64,000 nt of DNA, taken from contig NZ_JNAM01000006.1 of assembly GCF_000759975.1 (NCBI RefSeq), positions 1-64,000 on the forward strand, in the 5' to 3' direction. Below the pieces are notes generated by a model, which searched no databases, was not told the DNA's origin, and saw nothing but the letters and a program-made list of their open reading frames with translations. The position numbers and the translations under genes were made by a program. This document shows, one piece after another, positions 28,297-49,240 of this stretch (the stretch's first letter is position 1; every line of letters begins with the position of its first letter). Source of the stretch: Prochlorococcus marinus str. MIT 9302. Lineage in GTDB: Bacteria; Cyanobacteriota; Cyanobacteriia; PCC-6307; Cyanobiaceae.

Positions 28297-29448
28297 ATGA
28301 CAGTCTCAAAAGATATCAAATTTAATTTCTTAAACAAAGATGAACAAGAAAGATATCAAAAACATTTAACTCTCAAAGAGATAGGTTATGAGGGTCAACT
28401 AGATCTTAAAAACAGTTCAGTATTATGTATTGGAGCAGGTGGGCTTGGCTCTTCTGTTTTGCTTTATCTGACAGCAACAGGAATTGGAAAAATTGGAATA
28501 GTAGATAATGATCACGTTGAGAAGTCTAATCTCCAAAGACAGATAATTCATGAAACAAAAACTATTGGCAATCTTAAAATTGATTCTGCACGAGAAAGAA
28601 TTGAAAAATTGAATCCTAATTCCAAATTAGTAACCTTTGCGGAGAGAGTGAATCCTACAAATGTCCTCAAAATAATTCGAGAATTTGATGTGATTTGTGA
28701 TTGCTCAGATAACTTTGGCACTAGATATTTGATAAACGATGCGTGTCTGATACTAAATAAACCTCTAGTATTTGGCAGTGTACAAGGATTTGAAGGTCAA
28801 GTGAGTGTTTTCAATTTAAATGAAAAGAGTCCTAATTTAAGAGACTTACTGCCAGAATCACCGTCAAAAAATGCTATACCGAGTTGTGCAGAATATGGGG
28901 TCGTGGGAGTCTCAACAGGTTTAATAGGAATTCTCCAAGTGAATGAAATTATCAAAATCATTTTAAAAAAAGGTGAAATTTTAGATGGGAAAATATTGAT
29001 TTTTGATCTCTTGAATATGAATATGAAAAAATTACATCTAAAAAGTGATCAAATAAATAAAAAAATAAAAAATCTTTCTCAGTTTGTAGAATTTTATAGT
29101 GACGATGAATGTTCTGGGGAAAATAATGAAATTAACCGAATTAATGCTAAAGATTTTAATAGCTTATACACAGCAAAACCCAACAAAATACTTTTAATAG
29201 ATGTTAGGGAAAATGAAGAATTTTCAACTTCTGCAATAGAGGGCTCTATATCAATCCCTCTAAGTCATTTGAACCGAGAATCTGACTTAGACTTTATAAA
29301 AAAAGAAAGTTTAATTAAGGAAGTTTTTACCATATGCCAATCGGGCAAAAGATCTGACAAAGCGTCAAAAATCTTGTCTAAATTCAAAATTCAATCAAGA
29401 TCTATCGAGGGTGGTATTGAAAAGGTGAAAAATACATTACGCAATTAA
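28297..29448 (+). CDS. moeB: MoeB/ThiF-type adenylyltransferase fused to rhodanese
   Basis: Activates the C-terminal glycine of ubiquitin-like sulfur carriers (MoaD, ThiS) with ATP and can pass on sulfur. N-terminal E1-like domain: nucleotide motif GAGGLGSSVL, the SNLQRQIIH arginine block, and the active-site Cys in IPSCAEYGVVG. C-terminal rhodanese domain from about residue 280: LIDVRENEEF and catalytic loop CQSGKRSDKA. 383 residues. The paired CxxC zinc motifs seen in many relatives are not visible. Confidence 0.88.
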   Translation: MTVSKDIKFNFLNKDEQERYQKHLTLKEIGYEGQLDLKNSSVLCIGAGGLGSSVLLYLTATGIGKIGIVDNDHVEKSNLQRQIIHETKTIGNLKIDSARERIEKLNPNSKLVTFAERVNPTNVLKIIREFDVICDCSDNFGTRYLINDACLILNKPLVFGSVQGFEGQVSVFNLNEKSPNLRDLLPESPSKNAIPSCAEYGVVGVSTGLIGILQVNEIIKIILKKGEILDGKILIFDLLNMNMKKLHLKSDQINKKIKNLSQFVEFYSDDECSGENNEINRINAKDFNSLYTAKPNKILLIDVRENEEFSTSAIEGSISIPLSHLNRESDLDFIKKESLIKEVFTICQSGKRSDKASKILSKFKIQSRSIEGGIEKVKNTLRN

Positions 29449-29463
29449 TATTTTTAAGAATAT

Positions 29464-30624
29464 TTAGTAATCTACTCCTCTTTTTAAATCAACTCCAACA
29501 TTTGCATAATGTTTGTGGCAGACCATTTCAGAGTAAACATCAGCTAGTTCAAAATACGAAGGTTCATTTTTACATCTCCCAGTGATAACAATTTCTGTAT
29601 CTGCTGGTTTTTTCAAGAGCGTTTGATGTATTGACTCCACAGGTAGAAGTTCTAAATCAACTGTTGGATTTAATTCATCCAAAATAATTGTTTTATATAA
29701 ACCACTCAAAATAGCAGCTTTAGCAATTTCCCATGCTCTTTCAGCCTCAACGTAATCTATGGGTTGTTGCTGACCTCTCCATACAATCGCATCTCTGCCT
29801 GATCGCAAATGATCTACCAAATGGGGGTAACTTTCTCTCAAAGCTTCTATAGCAGCATCTTCGGTATAGCCATTACCACCTTTTAACCACTGTAAAATCA
29901 AAACTCTATGACTTTTATCTTGAGATATTCCTTTACCAATTGCTTGAAGAGCCTTGCCAAGTGCACTTGTGGATTTTCCTTTCCCTTCACCTGTATAAAT
30001 CTCAATTCCACCAGTAAATCTGATTTTTTCTGGTTCTTTTGATAAGTCTCTCCTTAGATGCGGTCTCATTTCTGAATGGAGTTGCGATATTCTTACTAAA
30101 GAAGGGGGGGCTGCCCTTCCTGTGATAATTATTTCGAGTCCTTCAGGACGACTTCGAAGAGAATCAACTACTTCCTTGATATTAAGCATTCCTAAATCAA
30201 GAACTGGATTTAACTCATCTAAAACAACTACAGAATAGAGAGAACTAGCAATTGCTCCTTTAGCAATATTCCAACCTCTCTCAGCCTCACCAATATCAAA
30301 CTTTGTAACCTGGTCAGCATTAAAAAATTCCGATCTTCCTGTCCTTACGTGGTCAATTAAGTGTGGGAATCCTCTTTGCAAGGCCTCTATAGCAGAATCC
30401 TCATCATATGGCCTTTCAGGACCTTTTAAAAATCTTAGAAGTAGAACTCTTGACTGTCTTTTTTCGCATATTCCTAAACCTATCGTCCTTAGTACAACAC
30501 CTAAAGCAGCCTGACTTTTACCCTTACCTTCACCATCATAAATATGTAATTGCCCCTTTAATCTCTCCTGACTATCACTAGCCGTGACAATTCCAATACC
30601 TCTATTTCTACTTGTATTAGTCAA
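29464..30624 (-). CDS. duplicated corrinoid adenosyltransferase-like P-loop protein (CobA/BtuR family)
   Basis: Two homologous halves, each with a CobA-type P-loop (DGEGKGKSQAAL at about 30-41, TGEGKGKSTSAL near 213), a GxxxYxED/YDEDSAIEALQ segment and a Walker-B-like VVLDELNPVLDLG or IILDELNPTVDLE, ending in ITGR. CobA transfers adenosyl to corrinoids in B12 synthesis, and Prochlorococcus makes pseudocobalamin. A single BtuR/CobA domain is about 190 residues; here 386 residues hold a tandem fusion, with both nucleotide motifs intact. Start is TTG. Confidence 0.85.
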   Translation of the reverse strand: MTNTSRNRGIGIVTASDSQERLKGQLHIYDGEGKGKSQAALGVVLRTIGLGICEKRQSRVLLLRFLKGPERPYDEDSAIEALQRGFPHLIDHVRTGRSEFFNADQVTKFDIGEAERGWNIAKGAIASSLYSVVVLDELNPVLDLGMLNIKEVVDSLRSRPEGLEIIITGRAAPPSLVRISQLHSEMRPHLRRDLSKEPEKIRFTGGIEIYTGEGKGKSTSALGKALQAIGKGISQDKSHRVLILQWLKGGNGYTEDAAIEALRESYPHLVDHLRSGRDAIVWRGQQQPIDYVEAERAWEIAKAAILSGLYKTIILDELNPTVDLELLPVESIHQTLLKKPADTEIVITGRCKNEPSYFELADVYSEMVCHKHYANVGVDLKRGVDY

Positions 30625-30732
30625 TTTAACAAGGTGAATAACTTTAATCTAAGATATAGTTAAGAATATTATTAAAAATTTAATAATAAATTCAACCTAT
30701 TCATAGGTAATTTGAATTTTAAAGTAATTAGC

Positions 30733-31560
30733 ATGTTCAATCAACTAGAAATTCTCTCTGATGAACAAAGTGAAAAGCTTTATACCATTAGAAGATACAT
30801 TAAGAATCTTGATAGTGTTTGTATTGCATATTCAGGAGGAGTTGACAGTACATTGGTAGCATCATTAGCGTTCGAGCAATTAGGTAGCAAAGCTATTGCA
30901 ATTACTGGGATTTCTCCCGCATTAGCTAACACACTTCGTGAAGAAGCAAAAAGTCAAGCAAAATGGATTGGAGTAAAACATTTAGAAATTAAAACATCAG
31001 AATTAGAACAATCAAGTTATAGTAAAAATCCCACAGATAGATGCTTTGCATGCAAAAAAGAGCTTCACAAACACACAACCTATTTTTCTAAAAAATTGAA
31101 TTATAAGATTGTTTTAGATGGAGTTAATCTTGATGATCTTAAAGATCATAGGCCAGGAATACAAGCAGCAAAAAAAGCAGGAGTTATTTCTCCGCTTGCA
31201 AAGTTTAAATTTTCAAAACAAGATATTAGGGATATATCCAGAGCATTAGGTTTCCCCTGGTGGGATAAACCTGCTCAACCTTGCTTGTCATCAAGATTTC
31301 CTTATGGCAATGAAATAACTAGTGAGAGGCTAAAAATGGTTGAGAAAGCAGAAGAATACCTCAAAAAGGGTGGTTTATCTGAAGTTAGAGTTAGATGCCA
31401 AGGCTTAACTGCAAGAATAGAAATCCCCAAAGATGAATTAAAGAATTTTTTTAAAAAATATAATCTTAATGATCTAGTGCAATATTTTTCCGATTTAGGA
31501 TTTAATTGCACAAGTTTAGATCTGGAAGGCTTAATAAGCGGAAAATTAAATAAAAGCTAA
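30733..31560 (+). CDS. larE: LarE-family ATP-dependent sulfur transferase
   Basis: LarE sacrifices its own cysteine sulfur to build the nickel-pincer cofactor of lactate racemase. The PP-loop YSGGVDST is at residues 33-40, CFACKKELHK holds a CxxC pair, and PAQPCLSSRFPYG is the conserved active-site stretch. 275 residues from the ATG at 30733; a TTG at 30712 with an AGG before it is the alternative. No larA, larB or larC is in the window, so the sulfur acceptor is unknown. Its 3' end overlaps speD by four bases. Confidence 0.85.
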   Translation: MFNQLEILSDEQSEKLYTIRRYIKNLDSVCIAYSGGVDSTLVASLAFEQLGSKAIAITGISPALANTLREEAKSQAKWIGVKHLEIKTSELEQSSYSKNPTDRCFACKKELHKHTTYFSKKLNYKIVLDGVNLDDLKDHRPGIQAAKKAGVISPLAKFKFSKQDIRDISRALGFPWWDKPAQPCLSSRFPYGNEITSERLKMVEKAEEYLKKGGLSEVRVRCQGLTARIEIPKDELKNFFKKYNLNDLVQYFSDLGFNCTSLDLEGLISGKLNKS

Positions 31561-31991
31561 ACAACCGTTCTAATCTCTTTGAGAACTGCAGCAGGTGGAT
31601 TTCTTTCAATAACACGCAAGAAATGTTCTTCAGCCTTCAAAGCTTCAATTAAATATTGACTAGCAACTTCTGGCATCATATATTGACCACATGTAAAGAT
31701 ATCGACGGCAGAATAATTAGATTCCGGCCAAGTATGTATTGAAATATGAGATTCAGCCAGTAATGCGATTGCTGTAACTCCTTGAGGGTCAAATTTATTA
31801 CTTATCAAATTAAGAACTGATGCCTTTGCTAATTTTGCAGCCCTGTTAAGGGTACAACGTAAAAAAGATTCATCATTTAATTTTTCATAATCACATCTAT
31901 AAAGTTCTAACAAAAGGTGTTTACTTTGATGGATTAATTTTTCATCATTACTAAACGAACTTAAAATTTGATTGTTTTTGGGGACTTCCAT
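31557..31991 (-). CDS. speD: S-adenosylmethionine decarboxylase, short prokaryotic form
   Basis: Provides aminopropyl groups for spermidine. The proenzyme cuts itself before the Ser of LLAESHISIHTWPE (Glu80/Ser81) to make the pyruvoyl cofactor, and the FTCGQ cysteine follows about 20 residues later. 144 residues, matching the short class 1B form. It converges on larE. Confidence 0.92.
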   Translation of the reverse strand: MEVPKNNQILSSFSNDEKLIHQSKHLLLELYRCDYEKLNDESFLRCTLNRAAKLAKASVLNLISNKFDPQGVTAIALLAESHISIHTWPESNYSAVDIFTCGQYMMPEVASQYLIEALKAEEHFLRVIERNPPAAVLKEIRTVV

Positions 31992-32042
31992 TAAATAAAT
32001 TTATACAAGAATAAGATTAGCTAAAAATAGTAATATTAGGAA

Positions 32043-33134
32043 TTATAAGTAAATCATTTGTGAAGACCCTAAGAAAGATTGATTAAATTTATCTAGATGT
32101 GTCGCACTTATAAAGCATTGACTATCTTTACCAACAGAATTTAGTAACAAATTTTGTCTAGTTATATCTAGTTCCGCTAAGACATCATCCAATATTAGTA
32201 TTGGTGGAACATTTAATATTTTACTTAATAAATCTAGTTCAGCCATCTTTAAAGCCAAGATAAAAGTTCTTTGCTGACCCGATGAACCATATTTCCTAAC
32301 TGAAATATTATTAATCAGAAACTCAATATCATCACGATGAGGTCCAAAATTACATTTACCAGTCAATGCTTCCATTGAACGCTGATTTAATAGTTGTTCT
32401 GCTATTTTCTTACTTATAACTTCTTCTTCTTCTTCTTCTGGACTAAGATTTTGTATTCCAGAAAGATAATTTATGCCTATTTGCTCTTTAGATTTACTTA
32501 AGTGATTATGCCAATATTCAACATATGGTTTTATTTTTAATAAAGCCCTTCTTCTTCGCCTAAAAATTCTTGTACTGATTATTGACATTTGAATATCAAA
32601 ACTTTCAAGAATTTCCGAGTACTGGTTATTTAGGACGCTTTCTGAACGCCAAAAATGATTTCTTTGTTTTAAAAGCCTGTTAAATCTACTTATTAGGTCT
32701 AAATATACTGGTTCAAGTTGAGAAACGACTTTATCAATCCATGTTCTTCGATAACTAGGTTCACCTTTAACAATATCTATATCATTAGAACAGAAACATA
32801 CGCTCTGAATATAATTCTTTATTTCACTCTGCTTTTTCAAGATTGATTCATTAACATAAATTCTTTTAGGGCCTTTTCGGAATAAATTTAACTTTAAATC
32901 ATCTTTAAAATCTATTTGTCCTATGACCACAGCCATATCACTTTCATTTTCTATTAAATCTTTATCACTTAATGCTCTATTAGATTTTAATTGACTTAAA
33001 AATTCAACCGATTCAAGTAAATTTGACTTTCCAACACCATTACAACCAAGAACAATTGCTCTTTGCTCTTTTAGGTCAATTTCAAAACTTTTATGGTTCC
33101 GAAAATTTTTAATTTTTAATTTATTTAAAAAAAT
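32043..33134 (-). CDS. recF: DNA recombination and repair protein RecF, start uncertain
   Basis: SMC-like ATPase that loads RecA at gaps. The frame is open from a stop at 33207 or so and encodes the conserved N-terminus LNKLKIKNFRNH, Walker A GCNGVGKSNLLE, signature SSGQQRTFILAL and Walker B ILILDDVLAELD. No ATG, GTG or TTG exists in frame before the conserved N-terminus; the first in-frame ATG (32936) would delete Walker A. ATT at 33132-33134 fits the family start (363 aa). Alternatively, the A7T8 run at 33127-33141 has lost or gained a base relative to ATGs at 33147 or 33151. Confidence 0.85.
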   Translation of the reverse strand: MFLNKLKIKNFRNHKSFEIDLKEQRAIVLGCNGVGKSNLLESVEFLSQLKSNRALSDKDLIENESDMAVVIGQIDFKDDLKLNLFRKGPKRIYVNESILKKQSEIKNYIQSVCFCSNDIDIVKGEPSYRRTWIDKVVSQLEPVYLDLISRFNRLLKQRNHFWRSESVLNNQYSEILESFDIQMSIISTRIFRRRRRALLKIKPYVEYWHNHLSKSKEQIGINYLSGIQNLSPEEEEEEVISKKIAEQLLNQRSMEALTGKCNFGPHRDDIEFLINNISVRKYGSSGQQRTFILALKMAELDLLSKILNVPPILILDDVLAELDITRQNLLLNSVGKDSQCFISATHLDKFNQSFLGSSQMIYL

Positions 33135-33182
33135 TTTTTTTCTGCATTCATTAATTAAATTAGCTAAGTTTAAAATATTTAG

Positions 33183-33200
33183 AATTTCTTTAAAGAAATT
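33183..33200. repeat. 18-bp perfect palindrome between recF and tRNA-Arg
   Basis: AATTTCTTTAAAGAAATT at 33183-33200 is a perfect dyad in the divergent gap, 11 bases before the tRNA. It could be an operator or chance in AT-rich DNA. Confidence 0.4.
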
Positions 33201-33211
33201 GAAAAATTAAA

Positions 33212-33285
33212 GGGCATGTAGCTCAGTTGGATAGAGCATCAGATTCCGGTTCTGAGAGTCGGGGGTTCGAATCCCTCCATGCTCG
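33212..33285 (+). tRNA. tRNA-Arg(CCG)
   Basis: 74-nt cloverleaf: acceptor GGGCATG/CATGCTC with one G-T pair, D-arm GCTCAGTTGGATAGAGC, anticodon stem TCAGA/TCTGA around TTCCGGT (anticodon CCG), T-loop GGTTCGAATCC, discriminator G. Reads CGG. Confidence 0.95.
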
Positions 33286-33296
33286 TAATATAATTT

Positions 33297-33743
33297 TTAA
33301 AGTTTATATCCCATTACTCTTATTCCATTTGGATTAAGTATGAATCCACTTTCTTCTAAACTTTTGAACGAAGACACCGGAGCTTGTACAGAAATACTGC
33401 ATCCAGGCATTTCTCTATTTATTTTATCAAGAGTTACTTGCAACAATATTGAATAATAAAGTTGCTGATTATTATCTGAAGCTGCACTTAAATTCCATAA
33501 GTTAGCATTCAATCCCCTGTCGGATGTAACCCTTACAAAGCCATATAATTTATTTTTTAATTGATTCTGTATGGTAAAAAAGAAATTACTTTTTTGAATA
33601 GCTTCAGAAAGCGGCTTTATTGGAAATGTATCGCAACCACAATTAGCTAAAAGTTTGTTTACTTCTTTAGCTAATGGGATCTGAGAAGAGTTAACAAAAT
33701 AACCTTCTGGAAGAATAAGTTTTTTTTTAGGAAAATATTGCAA
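33297..33743 (-). CDS. GNAT-like protein, picocyanobacterial
   Basis: 148 residues. The pattern (KLYGFVRVTSDRGLNANLWNL, then a helix, then a C-terminal ESGFILNPNGIRVMGYKL) resembles the late strands of a GNAT acetyltransferase, but the acetyl-CoA loop Q/RxxGxG/A is not clear. Two adjacent Cys (NCGCD) lie near residue 35. Start is TTG, three bases after the ppc stop, so it is probably co-transcribed with ppc. Substrate unknown. Confidence 0.6.
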   Translation of the reverse strand: MQYFPKKKLILPEGYFVNSSQIPLAKEVNKLLANCGCDTFPIKPLSEAIQKSNFFFTIQNQLKNKLYGFVRVTSDRGLNANLWNLSAASDNNQQLYYSILLQVTLDKINREMPGCSISVQAPVSSFKSLEESGFILNPNGIRVMGYKL

Positions 33744-33746
33744 TTA

Positions 33747-36716
33747 TCAACCTGTATTTCTCATACCTGCTGCTATTCCGTTAATAGTTAGAAGAGCCCC
33801 TCTCAATAATTCACTTCTACTATAGGCTCTTCTAGATTCATCTTTATCAATAAGAAATTCGCTAATTGGAGGTTGCCTTGTTTGATCTCTAAGTCTTCTT
33901 AAAAGTGAAACCTGCAAAAATCCCAAAGGAATGATTGTCTTATTTCTTAAGCTTACTGAAGATTTTAAGTCTCTATCAGCTTCTAGAAGCTTATTTTTAC
34001 CAGTAATTTCAAGTATTAAAGATTTTGTAAGACTATATTCTTTAGAAATTACTTCAAAAATAATATCAAAAGAATCTTTATTTTCTTTACTGCCAAGAGT
34101 ATCAACATAATATCTAGCAACTTCCAAATCCACCTTAGATAATGTCATTTCTACCTTAGATATGAGCATCCTAAAAAATGGCCATCTTTGATGCAAAACT
34201 CTTAATAATTCAATTTGTTGTGGGTCTGAATTTAATTCAGATGATAATGCAGTTCCTACTCCAAACCAACTTGGCAAAAGAAATCTACTTTGTGTCCAAC
34301 CAAATACCCATGGAATAGCTCTTAAACTTGACAAATCTTTTGCACCTTTTTTTCTTCTAGCAGGCCTACTAGATATCTGTAATTTGCTTATTTCTTCTAT
34401 TGGCGTGACCTCTTGAAAGAAATTTAACAAATCAGGATTCTCATACACTAATTTTCTGTAGTGAGACCTTGATGTTTCTGCCAGCCTAGACATTAATTGA
34501 TTCCATTCTGGAGTAGCGTCAAGTCTATTATTTACCAAACTATTTTGAATAACAGCTGTAGTAACAGTTTCAAGATTATACAAAGCCAGTTCAGGAAGAC
34601 TATATTTAGAAGCTAAAACTTCACCTTGTTCTGTTATTTTAATTCGCCCTTTTAAAGTACCACTTGGTTGAGCCAATATTGCCTGATAGGCTGGTCCTCC
34701 CCCTCTACCTACAGAACCGCCTCTTCCATGAAAAAGTCTTAGTAATATATTGTTTCTTTTTGCAAGATTTTGAAGAGCTATTTGGGCTCTATGAATTTCC
34801 CAATTACTAGAAACAAATCCTGAATCTTTATTACTATCAGAATATCCAAGCATTAATTCTTGAAGAGGTTTAAAAGATTCTCCAACTTTTGGCAATAATG
34901 ATCTATAAAAATCTAATTTAAACAACTTTTCCATTACATCTGGGGCTCTTTTAAGGTCTTCAACAGTTTCAAAAAGAGGAACGACTAATAATTTTGACTT
35001 TTGTGAGTTCTGATCAAGGAGTCCCATTTCTTTTGCCAGTAAGAGAACTTCAAGCAAATCAGATGCACTATGACTCATTGAAATTACATAAGAATGACAA
35101 ATACGACTCCCAAATTCTTGCTGCAGTCTCTTAACCATTTTAAAAACTGAAAAAGTTTCTACTGTAGTTTTTTTCCAGTTGACGTCAGAAGGAATTAAAG
35201 GCCTTTTTGTATTTAATTCGTCTATAAGCCATTTGATTTTCTCATCCTCAGACATTTGGTCATATTGCACAGATAAATCAAGATATTTTGTAAGCTCTTG
35301 TATGGCATCACTATGCCTTGTACTTTCTTGACGAATATCTAAACTTGCTAAAGAAAATCCAAAAATATGGACCTGAGTAAGTAATGTGTTTACCGCCTCA
35401 CAAGTCAAATCTGTGCTAATAAGGCTATTTTTAATTAGTTCGAGATCATACGTAAATTCGTTTACTGATTTGTAATATAAGTTTTCAACTTTATCTATAT
35501 TTTTGGTATCCATTTCTCCCTCTAAGTCAAATTTCCAGCCACTATCAGCTAATAAATTATTCCTTTTTTGTGTTAACCTCAATTTTTCTAGCATATAACT
35601 TAATTTCAATCTATAAGGTTCTGATCTGTATCTTGTCGCTCTAGCTTCATAGATTTCTGGAAACTTAACCCTATCTGTCTCTAATGACTCCAATAGAGCA
35701 GAACTTACTTGACTCCATTGCATTGAGACACTTAATTGATCTCTAAGATTAGATGTTGCAGTAATATATCTTTCCAACATCAACTGCCTTTGGTAGCAAG
35801 CAGTTCTCCATGTTATGTCCGGAGTGACCGATGGATTACCATCCCTATCGGAACCAACCCAAGAACCGAAGTTACAAAAAGATTCAGAGGGCATTTGAAC
35901 ATCTGGATAATTTTCGGCTAGTGCTTCAGCGATTCTGCCTCTCAATTGAGGCATTGCATTAAATAAAACTTGCTGAAAATAATGCAAGGCATAATCTACT
36001 TCGTCTAAAACTGAGGGTTTGAATTGATGCAATTCATCTGTTCTCCACCAAAGTCTTACCTCCTCTTTTAATTGGATTTTTAGAGAATTTTTTTCTTCTT
36101 TTGTTAAAAATTGTTCAACCTGTATTTTTTTTAACAAATTGGCGACTCTGGTCTGCTTATGTCTAATCGTATGTCTTACTATCTCGGTAGGATGGGCAGT
36201 AAAAACTAACCGAATATCCATTTCCTGCAATAAAGCCTCTAATTTTCCAGGTGGTACATTTAATTTCCTAAGCCTATAAAATAATTCCCTAAAAGTTACT
36301 GGAGCATTTTGTCTAGCCAATGCTGGGGCAAAAGGATCAAGATTGTCTGGCGATTTTTGAACATTCTTATTGGTAAAGCTTTGAATATATCTATCTTCCT
36401 CCACTCTTTGTTCCAAAATATTCACAAGTTGAAAATATAATGAAAATGCCCTTGCTGCTGCAATGGATTCTGCCAAATCCATAGAATTGACAATATCAAC
36501 TATTTCTTTTTTAAAAGTTTTTGAACTATCACCTTCAATTTGTTTTGAATAACTTAATTCTTTAAGCTGTATCAATCTCTCTGCTTGATCATCTGGGCAT
36601 TCTTCTCTGAGTACTGATTCCCATAGATCCTCTATTAAAAGACGATTTTTATCAAGTGAATCATTATTACTTATAAGATCCACATTATTATTTTTTATCT
36701 GTTGAAAGGATTCCAT
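33747..36716 (-). CDS. ppc: phosphoenolpyruvate carboxylase
   Basis: Adds bicarbonate to PEP to give oxaloacetate, replenishing the incomplete TCA pathway. The catalytic His is in [12 protein letters not shown], and [30 protein letters not shown] and the C-terminal [10 protein letters not shown] are all intact. 989 residues, full length for a cyanobacterial enzyme. Confidence 0.97.
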
Positions 36717-46581: not shown

Positions 46582-47811
46582 CTAAGATAACAAATGAGTG
46601 TTCATGGAATCTACAATTTTCTTGCTTGCGCCAGAATGACCCATTCTTTTTTTTCCAATTTTCGCTTGCTCTAACCTATACATTTTTTCTCTCAAAAGTA
46701 AACTTAAACGTTTTAAAAGTATTTCTTTATTCTTGCAAACTAAAACGCTTCCTCCTAATAATCTTGATTGTCTTTTTGCAAATGATTTTGTAAATTGTGG
46801 TCCTGATCCTGGAAGAGATAGTGATGGAATTCCAAGGCCAGCAATTTGCTCTGTAGCTGTTCCGGCATTAGACAACCCAACTTCTGCCATACTGGCCCAT
46901 AAATTAAATTTTCCTTTTCCAATCACTACATATTGATCTTTCTTTTTCCATACTGAATCTTCATCAATCAAGAATTCAAATTTACTCTGTTTTAAAAAAC
47001 CATATTTAATTAAATAACTTTGAATTTTAATCACATTTGCATTAATGCTCAAAGGTAAAAGTATTAGCAAATCCTTAGGTGTATAAAAATCTTGCAAACA
47101 CTCAAGAAAATTATCAAGATTTTTTAATGCTTCTGGATACCTACTTCCAACCAATAAAATTATCCTTTTGAAAGAAATAATATTTGATATTTTGTCATTT
47201 TTTGCATTAACAAAATCCATCATTGGATTACCCAAGTATTTTGCATGAATATTTTTTCTCTTCAAATTTTTAGCTGTAATTTTATCTCTCATAATTAAAT
47301 TTTTACATCTTGGAGATGACATTAAAAACATTTCCCATGGGTCCCATTCAGAACCTTTCAATTTATGATATGAATCGCTTAAATCCCAACCGGGTCCACT
47401 ACTCCAAGTATGGTCACTTTTTGGAGTTCCAATAAAACTGAATTCGCATTGTGAACTCCATGCGTAAAGTAATGGTAGAAAGTCTCCCACTGCAATAATC
47501 TTGCAATTTTGTTTTGACTTTTGTTTTACAATTAAAAAATTTCTTAAATTATCAATTAAAAATCCTGCAAACAAATCAAGCAAAAATCCCTTCAGGCTTT
47601 GATTACTAAAACCTCCACTAGGCAACTCTTTTAAATATCCTATTTTACGAAAATTCTTTGATTTTATTGAATTAAATACATCTCCATTGCCTACTAAAGG
47701 CAAAACTTCAATATTTTTATTTTTTATTTTTTTTAATAATCTTTTTATTATTTCTGATGCGATTACATCCTCTCCATGGCCATTGCATATAAATAATAGA
47801 GAATGAGTCAC
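46582..47811 (-). CDS. lipid-A-disaccharide synthase-related glycosyltransferase
   Basis: Cyanobacterial GT-B fold family related to LpxB (TIGR03492 type). SLLFICNGHGEDVIASEII at the start, the GTPKSDHTWSSGPGWDLSD segment and the C-terminal LSNAGTATEQIAGLGIPSL fit it. I start at the GTG at 47809-47811 (409 aa), which is preceded by AGTAAG. The frame continues upstream to 48000, but that part reads antisense through tRNA-Cys. Sugar substrate unknown. Confidence 0.8.
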   Translation of the reverse strand: MTHSLLFICNGHGEDVIASEIIKRLLKKIKNKNIEVLPLVGNGDVFNSIKSKNFRKIGYLKELPSGGFSNQSLKGFLLDLFAGFLIDNLRNFLIVKQKSKQNCKIIAVGDFLPLLYAWSSQCEFSFIGTPKSDHTWSSGPGWDLSDSYHKLKGSEWDPWEMFLMSSPRCKNLIMRDKITAKNLKRKNIHAKYLGNPMMDFVNAKNDKISNIISFKRIILLVGSRYPEALKNLDNFLECLQDFYTPKDLLILLPLSINANVIKIQSYLIKYGFLKQSKFEFLIDEDSVWKKKDQYVVIGKGKFNLWASMAEVGLSNAGTATEQIAGLGIPSLSLPGSGPQFTKSFAKRQSRLLGGSVLVCKNKEILLKRLSLLLREKMYRLEQAKIGKKRMGHSGASKKIVDSMNTHLLS

Positions 47812-47853
47812 CTTACTGTTAAGATCATAAAAAGATTCAATTGAATCTTTTTC

Positions 47854-47924
47854 GGCGGCATGGCCAAGTGGTAAGGCAGAGGATTGCAAATCCTTTATCC
47901 CCAGTTCGAATCTGGGTGCCGCCT
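47854..47924 (+). tRNA. tRNA-Cys(GCA)
   Basis: 71-nt cloverleaf: acceptor GGCGGCA/TGCCGCC, anticodon GCA in TTGCAAA, T-arm CCCCAGTTCGAATCTGGG, discriminator T. It is the insertion site of the small element described next; its 3' end is duplicated at 49010-49037. Confidence 0.96.
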
Positions 47925-47930
47925 TCTTTA
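47903..47930 (+). repeat. att-like direct repeat, tRNA-Cys copy
   Basis: 28 bases from the T-arm of tRNA-Cys (AGTTCGAATCTGGG...) through the discriminator and seven bases beyond recur exactly at 49010-49037. Overlap with an intact tRNA 3' end is typical of tyrosine-recombinase attachment sites. Confidence 0.85.
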
Positions 47931-48009
47931 TATTAGTAAAAATATTCGTTGCAATCCCTTCCAATACCTTGAGTTTCGAGTATCTATTCTTAAATTTCAA
48001 AGCGTTATG

Positions 48010-48034
48010 AATGGTAGGAAAGTGGTAGGAAAGT
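48010..48034 (+). repeat. internal 25-bp direct repeat, left copy
   Basis: Built from AAT followed by two tandem 11-mers GGTAGGAAAGT. An exact copy is at 48929-48953. Position near the left end suggests an arm-type binding site for a recombinase or excision factor (inference). Confidence 0.85.
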
Positions 48035-48264
48035 CAAGACAAAACTTTCTTTAACCCACATGAAACTATTATCGCAAAATAAAAAGCAAGGAACAAATTA
48101 TTAAATAACTTTAAATTGATTACAATCCCACTCCTTTAATTAAAAAATCTTCCTTCATAAAGGACACATTATTGAAATGTAAAGCAAAAATGTGAAGCAG
48201 GCATTAAGATTTTCAATAAATTTAATTTTTTACATAAAAATAGTAAAAATTACTTAACGACTTA

Positions 48265-48828
48265 GTGAACAATAGTATTCCTAGATCTTGCCCTAAATGC
48301 AAATCAGTAAATTTAATTTCTAATAATACTTCTTTTTTAAGGTGCAAAGATTGCAATTATTCATGGTTTATTGATAGAAAAAGAAAAACAACACAAAATG
48401 TTTTTGATATTGATCTAATAACTTATAAATTTAGAAAAAATAAAAAAGTTATTTATATACTAATGGGAACAATTTTTCTCTTTTTTATATTAAATAAGTA
48501 TGGATTTAATTTTGAGGATTTAGAGGTAATTTTCACATATTTAATTGCATTCCTTATAGTAGCGGGGACTATCTTTTTAGGAGGAAAATTAACTAAAGGA
48601 TTGAGAGAGAGGGGAGCAAAATTACATGCTGATAGGGAATATGAAGCATCTAAATGTTCGAAATGCGGAACACCTAATAGTACCGAACATATAAATCAAG
48701 AATGGCATGGAACATATTGGATTGGACAAGGATTAAATCGTGAAACAAGAAATGTCTATAAAAATACCTATAGATGTTCAAATTGTGGTCATCAATATTG
48801 GACAACAAATCGAAGTTGGTTTAACTAA
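48265..48828 (+). CDS. membrane protein with two zinc ribbons
   Basis: 187 residues from a GTG start (no ATG in frame nearby, no clear Shine-Dalgarno). N-terminal zinc ribbon CPKCKSVNL...CKDCNYSWF, then two membrane helices (about residues 64-80 and 88-108), then a basic linker with LRERGAKLHADREYEASKC, then a second ribbon CSKCG...CSNCG ending in NRSWFN. It is the only gene between the two att-like repeats. The ribbons suggest metal or nucleic-acid binding at the membrane; no function is assigned. Confidence 0.7.
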   Translation: MNNSIPRSCPKCKSVNLISNNTSFLRCKDCNYSWFIDRKRKTTQNVFDIDLITYKFRKNKKVIYILMGTIFLFFILNKYGFNFEDLEVIFTYLIAFLIVAGTIFLGGKLTKGLRERGAKLHADREYEASKCSKCGTPNSTEHINQEWHGTYWIGQGLNRETRNVYKNTYRCSNCGHQYWTTNRSWFN

Positions 48829-48928
48829 AAAAATTATTTAATTAATCAAATAAATTGATTCTAAAAGTAATTTAATTTCCTACCTTAAAAATAAATAAAT
48901 AGATTGAAAGTAAATATTCAACACTTCT

Positions 48929-48953
48929 AATGGTAGGAAAGTGGTAGGAAAGT
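48929..48953 (+). repeat. internal 25-bp direct repeat, right copy
   Basis: Identical to 48010-48034 in the same orientation, including the two internal 11-mers. Confidence 0.85.
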
Positions 48954-49009
48954 TTAAATTTTGATCTCAAAAACTTTAGATATAGATTAATTTTTACAAT
49001 ACAAAACCT

Positions 49010-49037
49010 AGTTCGAATCTGGGTGCCGCCTTCTTTA
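49010..49037 (+). repeat. att-like direct repeat, right copy (truncated tRNA-Cys 3' end)
   Basis: Exact 28-base copy of 47903-47930. Upstream bases do not form the rest of a tRNA, so this is a fragment and not a second gene. Confidence 0.88.
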
Positions 49038-49240
49038 ATTTTTTTACGAATTTAATTATGAAGTATTCGAGGAACTTCAATTTCAAGTAAAAGGTAAAAA
49101 GTTTCAATTACTTATTGATATGTAGAAAAATAATCTTTTATGTATTTGATAAATATTAACTTATATATTTATTGATAAATGACATTACTTGGATTTATTA
49201 ATTATTTTCATCAGATTACTTTATGTATATTGGAATTATT

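Follow-up and report, generated by a model that had tools for sequence, protein, structure and literature searches.

The first 64,000 nucleotides of contig NZ_JNAM01000006.1 of Prochlorococcus marinus str. MIT 9302 (hereafter the window) contain a tRNA-Cys gene whose 3′-end is repeated 1.1 kb downstream, and the DNA between the two copies encodes no integrase. This locus raises the question of how a unit without an integrase of its own came to lie at the end of a tRNA gene. As set out below, the unit, which spans positions 47931-49037, is probably a non-autonomous integrative passenger, recombined in trans by a tyrosine integrase that is matched to it by a short sequence code and is now absent from the host genome. 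Genomes and loci are designated by G and L numbers, G000 being the genome of the window.

ARAGORN places tRNA-Cys(GCA), the integration target, at positions 47854-47924 of the plus strand. An exact repeat of 28 nucleotides, AGTTCGAATCTGGGTGCCGCCTTCTTTA, occupies positions 47903-47930 and 49010-49037 of the same strand. No further match was found in the window with as many as 3 mismatches allowed, and with 0.00 copies expected by chance (100 shuffles) the repeat is not fortuitous. When one mismatch is allowed, it grows to 31 nucleotides (47900-47930 and 49007-49037). The first copy, the attL core, runs from the T-arm of the tRNA through 6 nucleotides beyond its end at 47924, and not seven as stated in the initial annotation of this DNA. 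Apart from this detail, the exact 28-base duplication of the tRNA-Cys 3′-end claimed there is present, and the second copy, the attR core, indeed lacks the rest of the tRNA, as ARAGORN detected no tRNA at positions 49010-49037. Comparison of the sequences following the core across loci indicates that the left end of the element, from the core to the first arm (47931-48012), replaces the native downstream sequence of empty sites, and that positions 49038-49160 beyond attR are of the type found directly 3′ of tRNA-Cys at empty sites. If excised, the unit would form a circle of 1107 bp.

The unit contains a further exact direct repeat that had not been recorded in the initial annotation, 25 nucleotides in length, located at positions 48010-48034 and 48929-48953. 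Each copy comprises two abutting 11-mers GGTAGGAAAGT and hence a perfect 22-bp tandem. The left tandem (48013-48034, plus strand) lies 108 nucleotides from the start of the TTCGAATC core and the right tandem (48932-48953, plus strand) 80 nucleotides before the attR core, and an inverted near-copy, AATTTCCTACC, which matches the code at 10 of 11 positions, is located on the minus strand at 48874-48884, 138 nucleotides before the attR core. The word GGTAGGAAAG occurs four times in the 64-kb window as compared with 0.17 expected, and the 21-mer of the arms was found at just two places in the 1.75-Mb host genome at up to 3 mismatches, both of them the arms of the unit. Known arm repeats measure 10-11 bp, and the simplest reading of the 11-mers is as arm sites of an integrase. 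At another place in the host genome (G000:C10:166137) we observed a degenerate tandem resembling the 11-mers, GGTAAGACAATGGCAGGAAAGT, with another integrase-like gene some 3.5 kb away; a similar sequence is also present in G054 and may indicate a conserved gene instead of an arm.

Only one open reading frame (ORF) of at least 60 amino acids lies wholly inside the unit. It has a GTG start and encodes a protein of 187 amino acids (48265-48828, plus strand), and the unit contains neither an integrase nor a serine recombinase. By eye, the protein consists of two CxxC zinc-ribbon-like ends flanking a hydrophobic middle. Its zinc-ribbon matches are all sub-threshold, the top match being the IS1595 transposase zinc-ribbon with 19.9 bits against a cut-off of 25.4, and no integrase was among its PHROG, NCBIfam and PADLOC results, PADLOC giving no match at all. 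The protein is 47% identical over 131 amino acids to the cargo of a unit in G179, and no other match was obtained in 121 genomes of the genus, a sample that does not include G179.

The same anatomy recurs at tRNA-Cys in other genomes. The copies of the tRNA tail are separated by 190 bp to 9.5 kb, integrase-less units measuring 0.2-3 kb and the rare integrase-bearing elements 6.6-9.5 kb, and over 28 intervals the left arms are mostly found at +107 to +118 and the right arms mostly at -79 to -82 from the cores. The 11-mers differ between elements, with the left end matching the right, and fall into seven variants, hereafter codes: GGTAGGAAAGT, GGATGGTAAGT, GGGCGGTAAGT, GGACGGTAAGT, GGTCGGCAAGT, GGACAGCAAGT and GGTAGGTGAGT. 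Among 26 two-ended elements, the best-matching code is common to both ends in 25, uniquely in 23 and by a tie at the right end in two (G127 and G158). This count omits the shells described below (G151 and the second interval of G060), the second interval of G129, G108, which has a left end only, and G237 and G254, the ends of which lie on different contigs. When left and right ends were paired at random, none of 100,000 pairings matched as well as the real ones (mean 13.3 for own and 7.3 for other), and the outcome was the same without G029. Moreover, in 24 of 25 elements (without G029) no other code fits the inverted third arm better than the element's own. The code of the window unit is common to six of the 21 integrase-less elements, namely those of G000 itself, G032, G078, G129, G170 and G179.

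A motif search of genome contigs yielded 38 stretches. We followed ten of them, which come from eight genomes of Prochlorococcus; three further ones, also cyanobacterial (L116, L129 and L148), contain no tRNA-Cys tail. The core and arm sites of the window unit are also those of an integrase-bearing element in Prochlorococcus AG-363-B04 (QCFC01000003, about 28924-35506). This element of 6.6 kb has a tRNA-Cys core, a GGTAGGAAAG tandem on the left, a GGTAGGAAAA tandem on the right, an inverted copy and an integrase ORF adjoining attR, and it also encodes a serine-resolvase-like protein, as judged by eye. Elements of 7-9.5 kb with a protein of about 460 amino acids encoded beside attR are present in G171, G200 and G249. 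These proteins have no Pfam match except for a weak one to DUF3050 in one of them, the AG-363-B04 and G249 integrases have no match in PHROGs or NCBIfam, and a profile of seven family members found nothing in the PDB. In the alignment of the seven members, R290, K318, R396, H397 and Y434 (AG-363-B04 numbering), which we take to be the catalytic residues, are invariant. An AlphaFold model (mean predicted local distance difference test 76.5, predicted template modelling score 0.51), with an N-terminus made up of strands followed by a helix, gave Cre, Tn1549 Int and lambda Int as best matches in the PDB (17 matches, E 2e-4 to 9e-4). With two queries the integrase family was found in eight of 266 genomes of the genus, and neither query matches the genome of the window at E 0.001. 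A related integrase (35% identical) lies beside a copy of the tRNA-Cys tail in G147, where the code is GGTAGGACAGT, one base off, and four of the seven codes have an integrase-bearing member. We infer that an integrase of this kind would act in trans on the window unit.

The initial annotation had associated the unit with tycheposons. A remnant or cargo-only tycheposon, mobilised by a tycheposon integrase, would be in keeping with the Prochlorococcus host, the tRNA target and a cargo without mobility genes, and the host genome does contain four PF00589 matches, two of them above the family cut-off. However, the integrase of the code-sharing element lacks a PHROG or NCBIfam match, and its relatives lack a Pfam integrase match. 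PMC10187409 describes a tyrosine integrase family (cluster158946) at tRNA-Cys and tRNA-Phe of Prochlorococcus and Synechococcus, frequently close to a small serine recombinase, and reports it as distinct from the tycheposon integrases. From their target, their neighbours and their lack of family matches we take the integrases described here to be probable members of this family. In addition, tycheposons are 4-200 kbp in length with seven tRNA targets, as quoted in PMC10872708, whereas the window unit measures 1.1 kb and contains no recombinase. The association with tycheposons thus found no support, and we consider such an origin highly improbable. One of the PF00589 matches of the host genome (G000:C10:303416, L014), a frame of 404 amino acids below the family cut-off, is located about 1.2 kb from a tRNA-Ser and possibly belongs to a separate integrative element.

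We then considered how the site is occupied in relatives. A 23-nucleotide tRNA-Cys tail, sought with up to 2 mismatches in the 266 genomes, is present in 205 of them and occurs in two or three copies in 25. Three of these 25 have an integrase between the copies and two have the copies on different contigs; in the other 20 the copies lie on one contig without a match to either integrase query (E 0.001), many of the genomes being incomplete. In the genomes retrieved, the sequence following the tRNA is of two kinds, either native, resembling that after attR of the window, or an element-type left end. In the first 30 genomes with loci (L020-L049, that of the window included) we counted by eye 15 native and 15 element forms. 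Relatives with flanking genes about 88-91% identical to those of the window have either an empty site or a different element, and the unit is therefore neither fixed nor syntenic throughout the clade. The main inference of the initial annotation, that a minimal unit lacking its own integrase was integrated site-specifically at the 3′-end of tRNA-Cys, is supported. The two comparisons proposed along with it turned out in its favour: the unit is not shared syntenically by all relatives, and larger islands with an integrase do exist at the same site in other genomes. At L015, L050, L057, L058, L060, L062, L063 and L064, a further left end of the element type lies beyond attR, that is, units are stacked in tandem.

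The closest unit found to that of the window is the one in G179, and neither carries an integrase. The two are 95.2% identical over 167 nucleotides at the right end and 82% over 269 nucleotides at the left end, beside flanking genes with identities of 69.6% and 73.1%. A right end that is 95% alike next to flanks that are 70-73% alike indicates horizontal movement. The attR of G179 is followed by the left end of another element, and identity beyond the core is not like-for-like with the native flank of the window. Likewise, the shell of G151 is 98.4% identical to the unit of G025 over 69% of its length, with flanks of 75.8% and 83.6%. The reverse discordance was observed among units with the GGACAGCAAGT code, where the units agree at 74-81% and the upstream flanks of their hosts at 93-95%; this could also be explained by a faster change of the units. 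As far as these comparisons of units and flanks go, the discordance indicates that integrase-less units move horizontally. Prochlorococcus genomes recombine, and the unit might have been moved solely by homologous recombination between chromosomes sharing the tRNA-Cys gene instead of site-specifically, given that the tRNA offers some homology and that the right boundary in G179 is not directly comparable with the native flank of the window. However, flanking genes at 70-73% identity leave little homology beyond the tRNA, and the near-constant geometry of the arms together with the matched codes calls for a recombinase. We therefore give this explanation very little credence.

The initial annotation had left the choice between a passenger and the scar of a larger element. 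In the latter case an integrase-bearing element would have lost its interior, including the integrase, and would now be immobile, as is the case for a cis-mobilizable element (CIME), which PMC5704250 presents as the decay product of an integrative and conjugative or an integrative and mobilizable element. The likeness to a CIME extends to the presence of attL and attR, the absence of integration and transfer genes and the tandem arrangement with other elements. Deletion derivatives do exist. We found two shells, made up of a left and a right end that meet at one arm tandem and reminiscent of a solo long terminal repeat, namely in G151 (L056, 197 bp) and in G060 (L050, 4395-4585 in tRNA orientation, 190 bp). 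The left 118 nucleotides of the G151 shell are one position off the left end of G025, and its right 79 nucleotides match at 53 of 79 positions without gaps. The two shells suggest that the arm repeats may also serve for deletion of the interior. The lack of an integrase of the helper family in the host genome and the degraded arms of several units likewise speak for a scar. However, the two arm tandems of the window unit are identical and perfect, integrase-less units outnumber integrase-bearing ones by 20 to 3 among the 25 genomes with a doubled tail, and the units of G000 and G179 share ends and homologous cargo, both without an integrase and in distant hosts, which is poorly explained by independent decay. 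Whereas the shells show that decay occurs, the discordance between integrase-less siblings and their flanks argues against a CIME-type origin. In contrast to CIMEs, we find a recurrent series of small cargo units that have code-matched arms and show signs of moving horizontally without an integrase. Of the two possibilities, the passenger is favoured by its matched arms, by the element bearing an integrase and the same code and by the distant sibling unit; the scar is kept as a rival, though an unlikely one.

For a passenger, the following course of events can be proposed. The ends of the unit would form an apparently complete substrate, consisting of the tRNA-Cys 3′-end as core for strand exchange and of tandem 11-bp arms at fixed distances. 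The integrase would come from a larger element that has the 11-bp code in common with the passenger. This helper integrase would attach to the passenger's arms just as to its own and carry out integration or excision of the passenger at tRNA-Cys. The 1107-bp circle would re-enter tRNA-Cys and thereby regenerate an intact tRNA. Transfer between cells would proceed by some vehicle, and since the helper family is absent from the host genome, the helper would be transient, incoming or lost in this host.

Similar units are present at tRNA-Phe. A 22-nucleotide tail of tRNA-Phe was found in 102 of 121 genomes and twice in 15 of them. Eleven of these 15 doubled loci were analysed, G021 and G084 being taken from other loci, the copies of G054 lying on two contigs and G017 being left out. 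The elements of G021 and G084 are integrase-bearing. In ten of the eleven loci no integrase was matched; the match in G048 spans 73 amino acids only. In eight of the ten integrase-less units a word of at least 10 nucleotides is common to the left and right ends; as the windows overlap in one of the eight, G003 (146 bp), seven of nine are informative. The word GTATGGAACT is common to the unit of G038 and the integrase-bearing element of G021. The loci L229-L239 and L159-L163 display a similar arm-coded architecture with and without an integrase. In G138 (L160, 8097-9308) two tRNA-Phe-like tails enclose a stretch of 1.16 kb which has GGTAGGTGAGT arms and adjoins an integrase gene; the GGTAGGTGAGT code is also present at tRNA-Cys in G064 and G207.

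Ten cargo proteins of other units were compared with Pfam at E 0.001. Three matches are above the curated cut-off, namely TPR (G170), T5orf172/MUG113 (G047) and Poly_export/SLBB (G023), four are below it (zinc ribbon, hydrolase, DUF805 and TPR), and three proteins have no match. As a tentative extension, for which we would claim no more than a minority chance, tRNA genes may sustain an integron-like economy of gene cassettes. Cassettes of one to few genes, each with a tRNA-end core and an 11-bp arm serving as a postcode, would circulate in Prochlorococcus without an integrase; few cells would carry the integrase-bearing element, each integrase would handle only its own postcode, and parallel pools would stack in one slot.

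Viral and phage sequences were screened as well. A scan for the tandem motif returned five viral contigs, none with a tRNA-Cys tail at up to 3 mismatches; by eye, the ORFs of two of the motif-bearing contigs, L106 and L108, resemble those of unrelated phages. A looser motif scan returned 18 viral contigs, none with the tested tail string, a number close to chance by a rough estimate. The integrase queries found no relatives in the viral contigs, and the one integrase query used on the phage records found none there. Two phage records matched the tRNA region, but only at query positions 55-127, which is the tRNA itself, and these matches were set aside.

Several observations weigh against a mobile passenger with a code-matched helper. 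The host genome has no integrase of the helper family, so that any current mobility of the unit is hypothetical. The integrase and motif scans of the viral contigs and phage records revealed no relative. The code-matched helper of AG-363-B04 stems from a distant lineage, the best match of the upstream gene being 68% over just 202 nucleotides, and the template modelling scores of the structural matches in the PDB are low (0.22-0.29 by query). The distance between codes correlates with the relatedness of the integrases, but for the N-terminal part no better than for the catalytic part (r -0.74 versus -0.78 with six integrases and -0.77 versus -0.73 with five), and no link of the code to the N-terminal domain in particular was found. 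The code rule itself is not absolute. G108 has a left end only, and G029 is the one exception with different codes at its two ends; its locus, L017, combines a GGTAGGAAA-type left end with a GGACAGC-type right end, and the unit is possibly a chimera of two code families. The tandem is degenerate at one or both ends in G127, G129, G136, G186, G190, G023 and G202, and many units with such arms may be dead. At tRNA-Phe, the units of G080 and G030 share no arm word of at least 10 nucleotides. The units of G136 and G186 are 87.5% alike with flanks that are 89-90% alike, as plain descent predicts. Furthermore, the codes were derived from the same elements that were later scored, and the permutation of end pairings, which is independent of the codes, is hence the stronger result. 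Finally, a region near the left end intended as a control often contains inverted matches to the element's own code (mean 7.8 of 11; at least 10 of 25 elements at 9 or higher). It is thus not clean, which weakens the inverted arm as evidence for a site specific to the right end. With all of these points taken into account, a passenger recombined in trans remains our preferred interpretation of the window unit.

The left end of the unit also contains the start of an ORF on the minus strand (46582-48000), which runs antisense through tRNA-Cys into a TIGR03492 gene, the domain beginning at residue 69. Of the 62 distinct element-type left ends, 48 have this frame open, and in several of the others a stop lies just before a start codon. 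Its ratio of nonsynonymous to synonymous substitutions is 0.62 as compared with 0.74-1.36 in the other five frames, which is suggestive only. The TIGR03492 ORF may gain a new start from the element, or the open frame may be a side effect of the conservation of the site. On visual inspection we also considered whether the left end of the element forms a paired structure, and discarded the idea.

With respect to known systems, the elements described in PMC10187409 have the same two target tRNAs as those studied here, and the integrase-bearing elements described above also encode small serine-recombinase-like proteins, as judged by eye. The window unit resembles them in its location at tRNA-Cys and, by a feature found in this study, in sharing core and arms with one integrase-bearing member; it differs in having neither the novel tyrosine integrase nor a serine recombinase. 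The terms repeat, attachment, att site, motif and non-autonomous are all absent from the text of PMC10187409, and arm sites or passengers are apparently not described in it. Miniature inverted-repeat transposable elements (MITEs) and clusters of attC sites lacking an integron integrase (CALINs), treated in PMC11389934 as hitchers of transposons and integrons, are likewise short, have recognition ends and depend on a recombinase in trans, and few-gene cargo in cassette-like stacked arrays is a further common trait. In contrast to them, the units at tRNA-Cys are bounded by a tRNA-end core and arms and not by transposon inverted repeats or attC sites. For some tyrosine recombinases, including the lambda and Tn916 integrases, the N-terminal domain binds arm sites inside the element, according to PMC8138268. 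Putative accessory sites within the element and a modelled N-terminus of strands and a helix are found here as well, whereas in the present elements the 11-mer variants apparently indicate which integrase-bearing and integrase-less elements, all sharing one site, belong together. In the open-licence literature, the titles and beginnings of abstracts among the matches listed mention no integrase-less, arm-coded passengers at these tRNAs. Judged from this literature, the integrase family is already known and the passengers with matched codes are apparently new.

If this interpretation holds, small cargo genes of a highly abundant photosynthetic organism would move without any mobility gene, and searches for genomic islands that are based on integrases would miss such units. 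Specificity would be written in a readable 11-bp code, providing a rule by which a passenger is paired with its helper, and the elements would offer a simple system of recombinase plus arms for studying the specificity of integrases.
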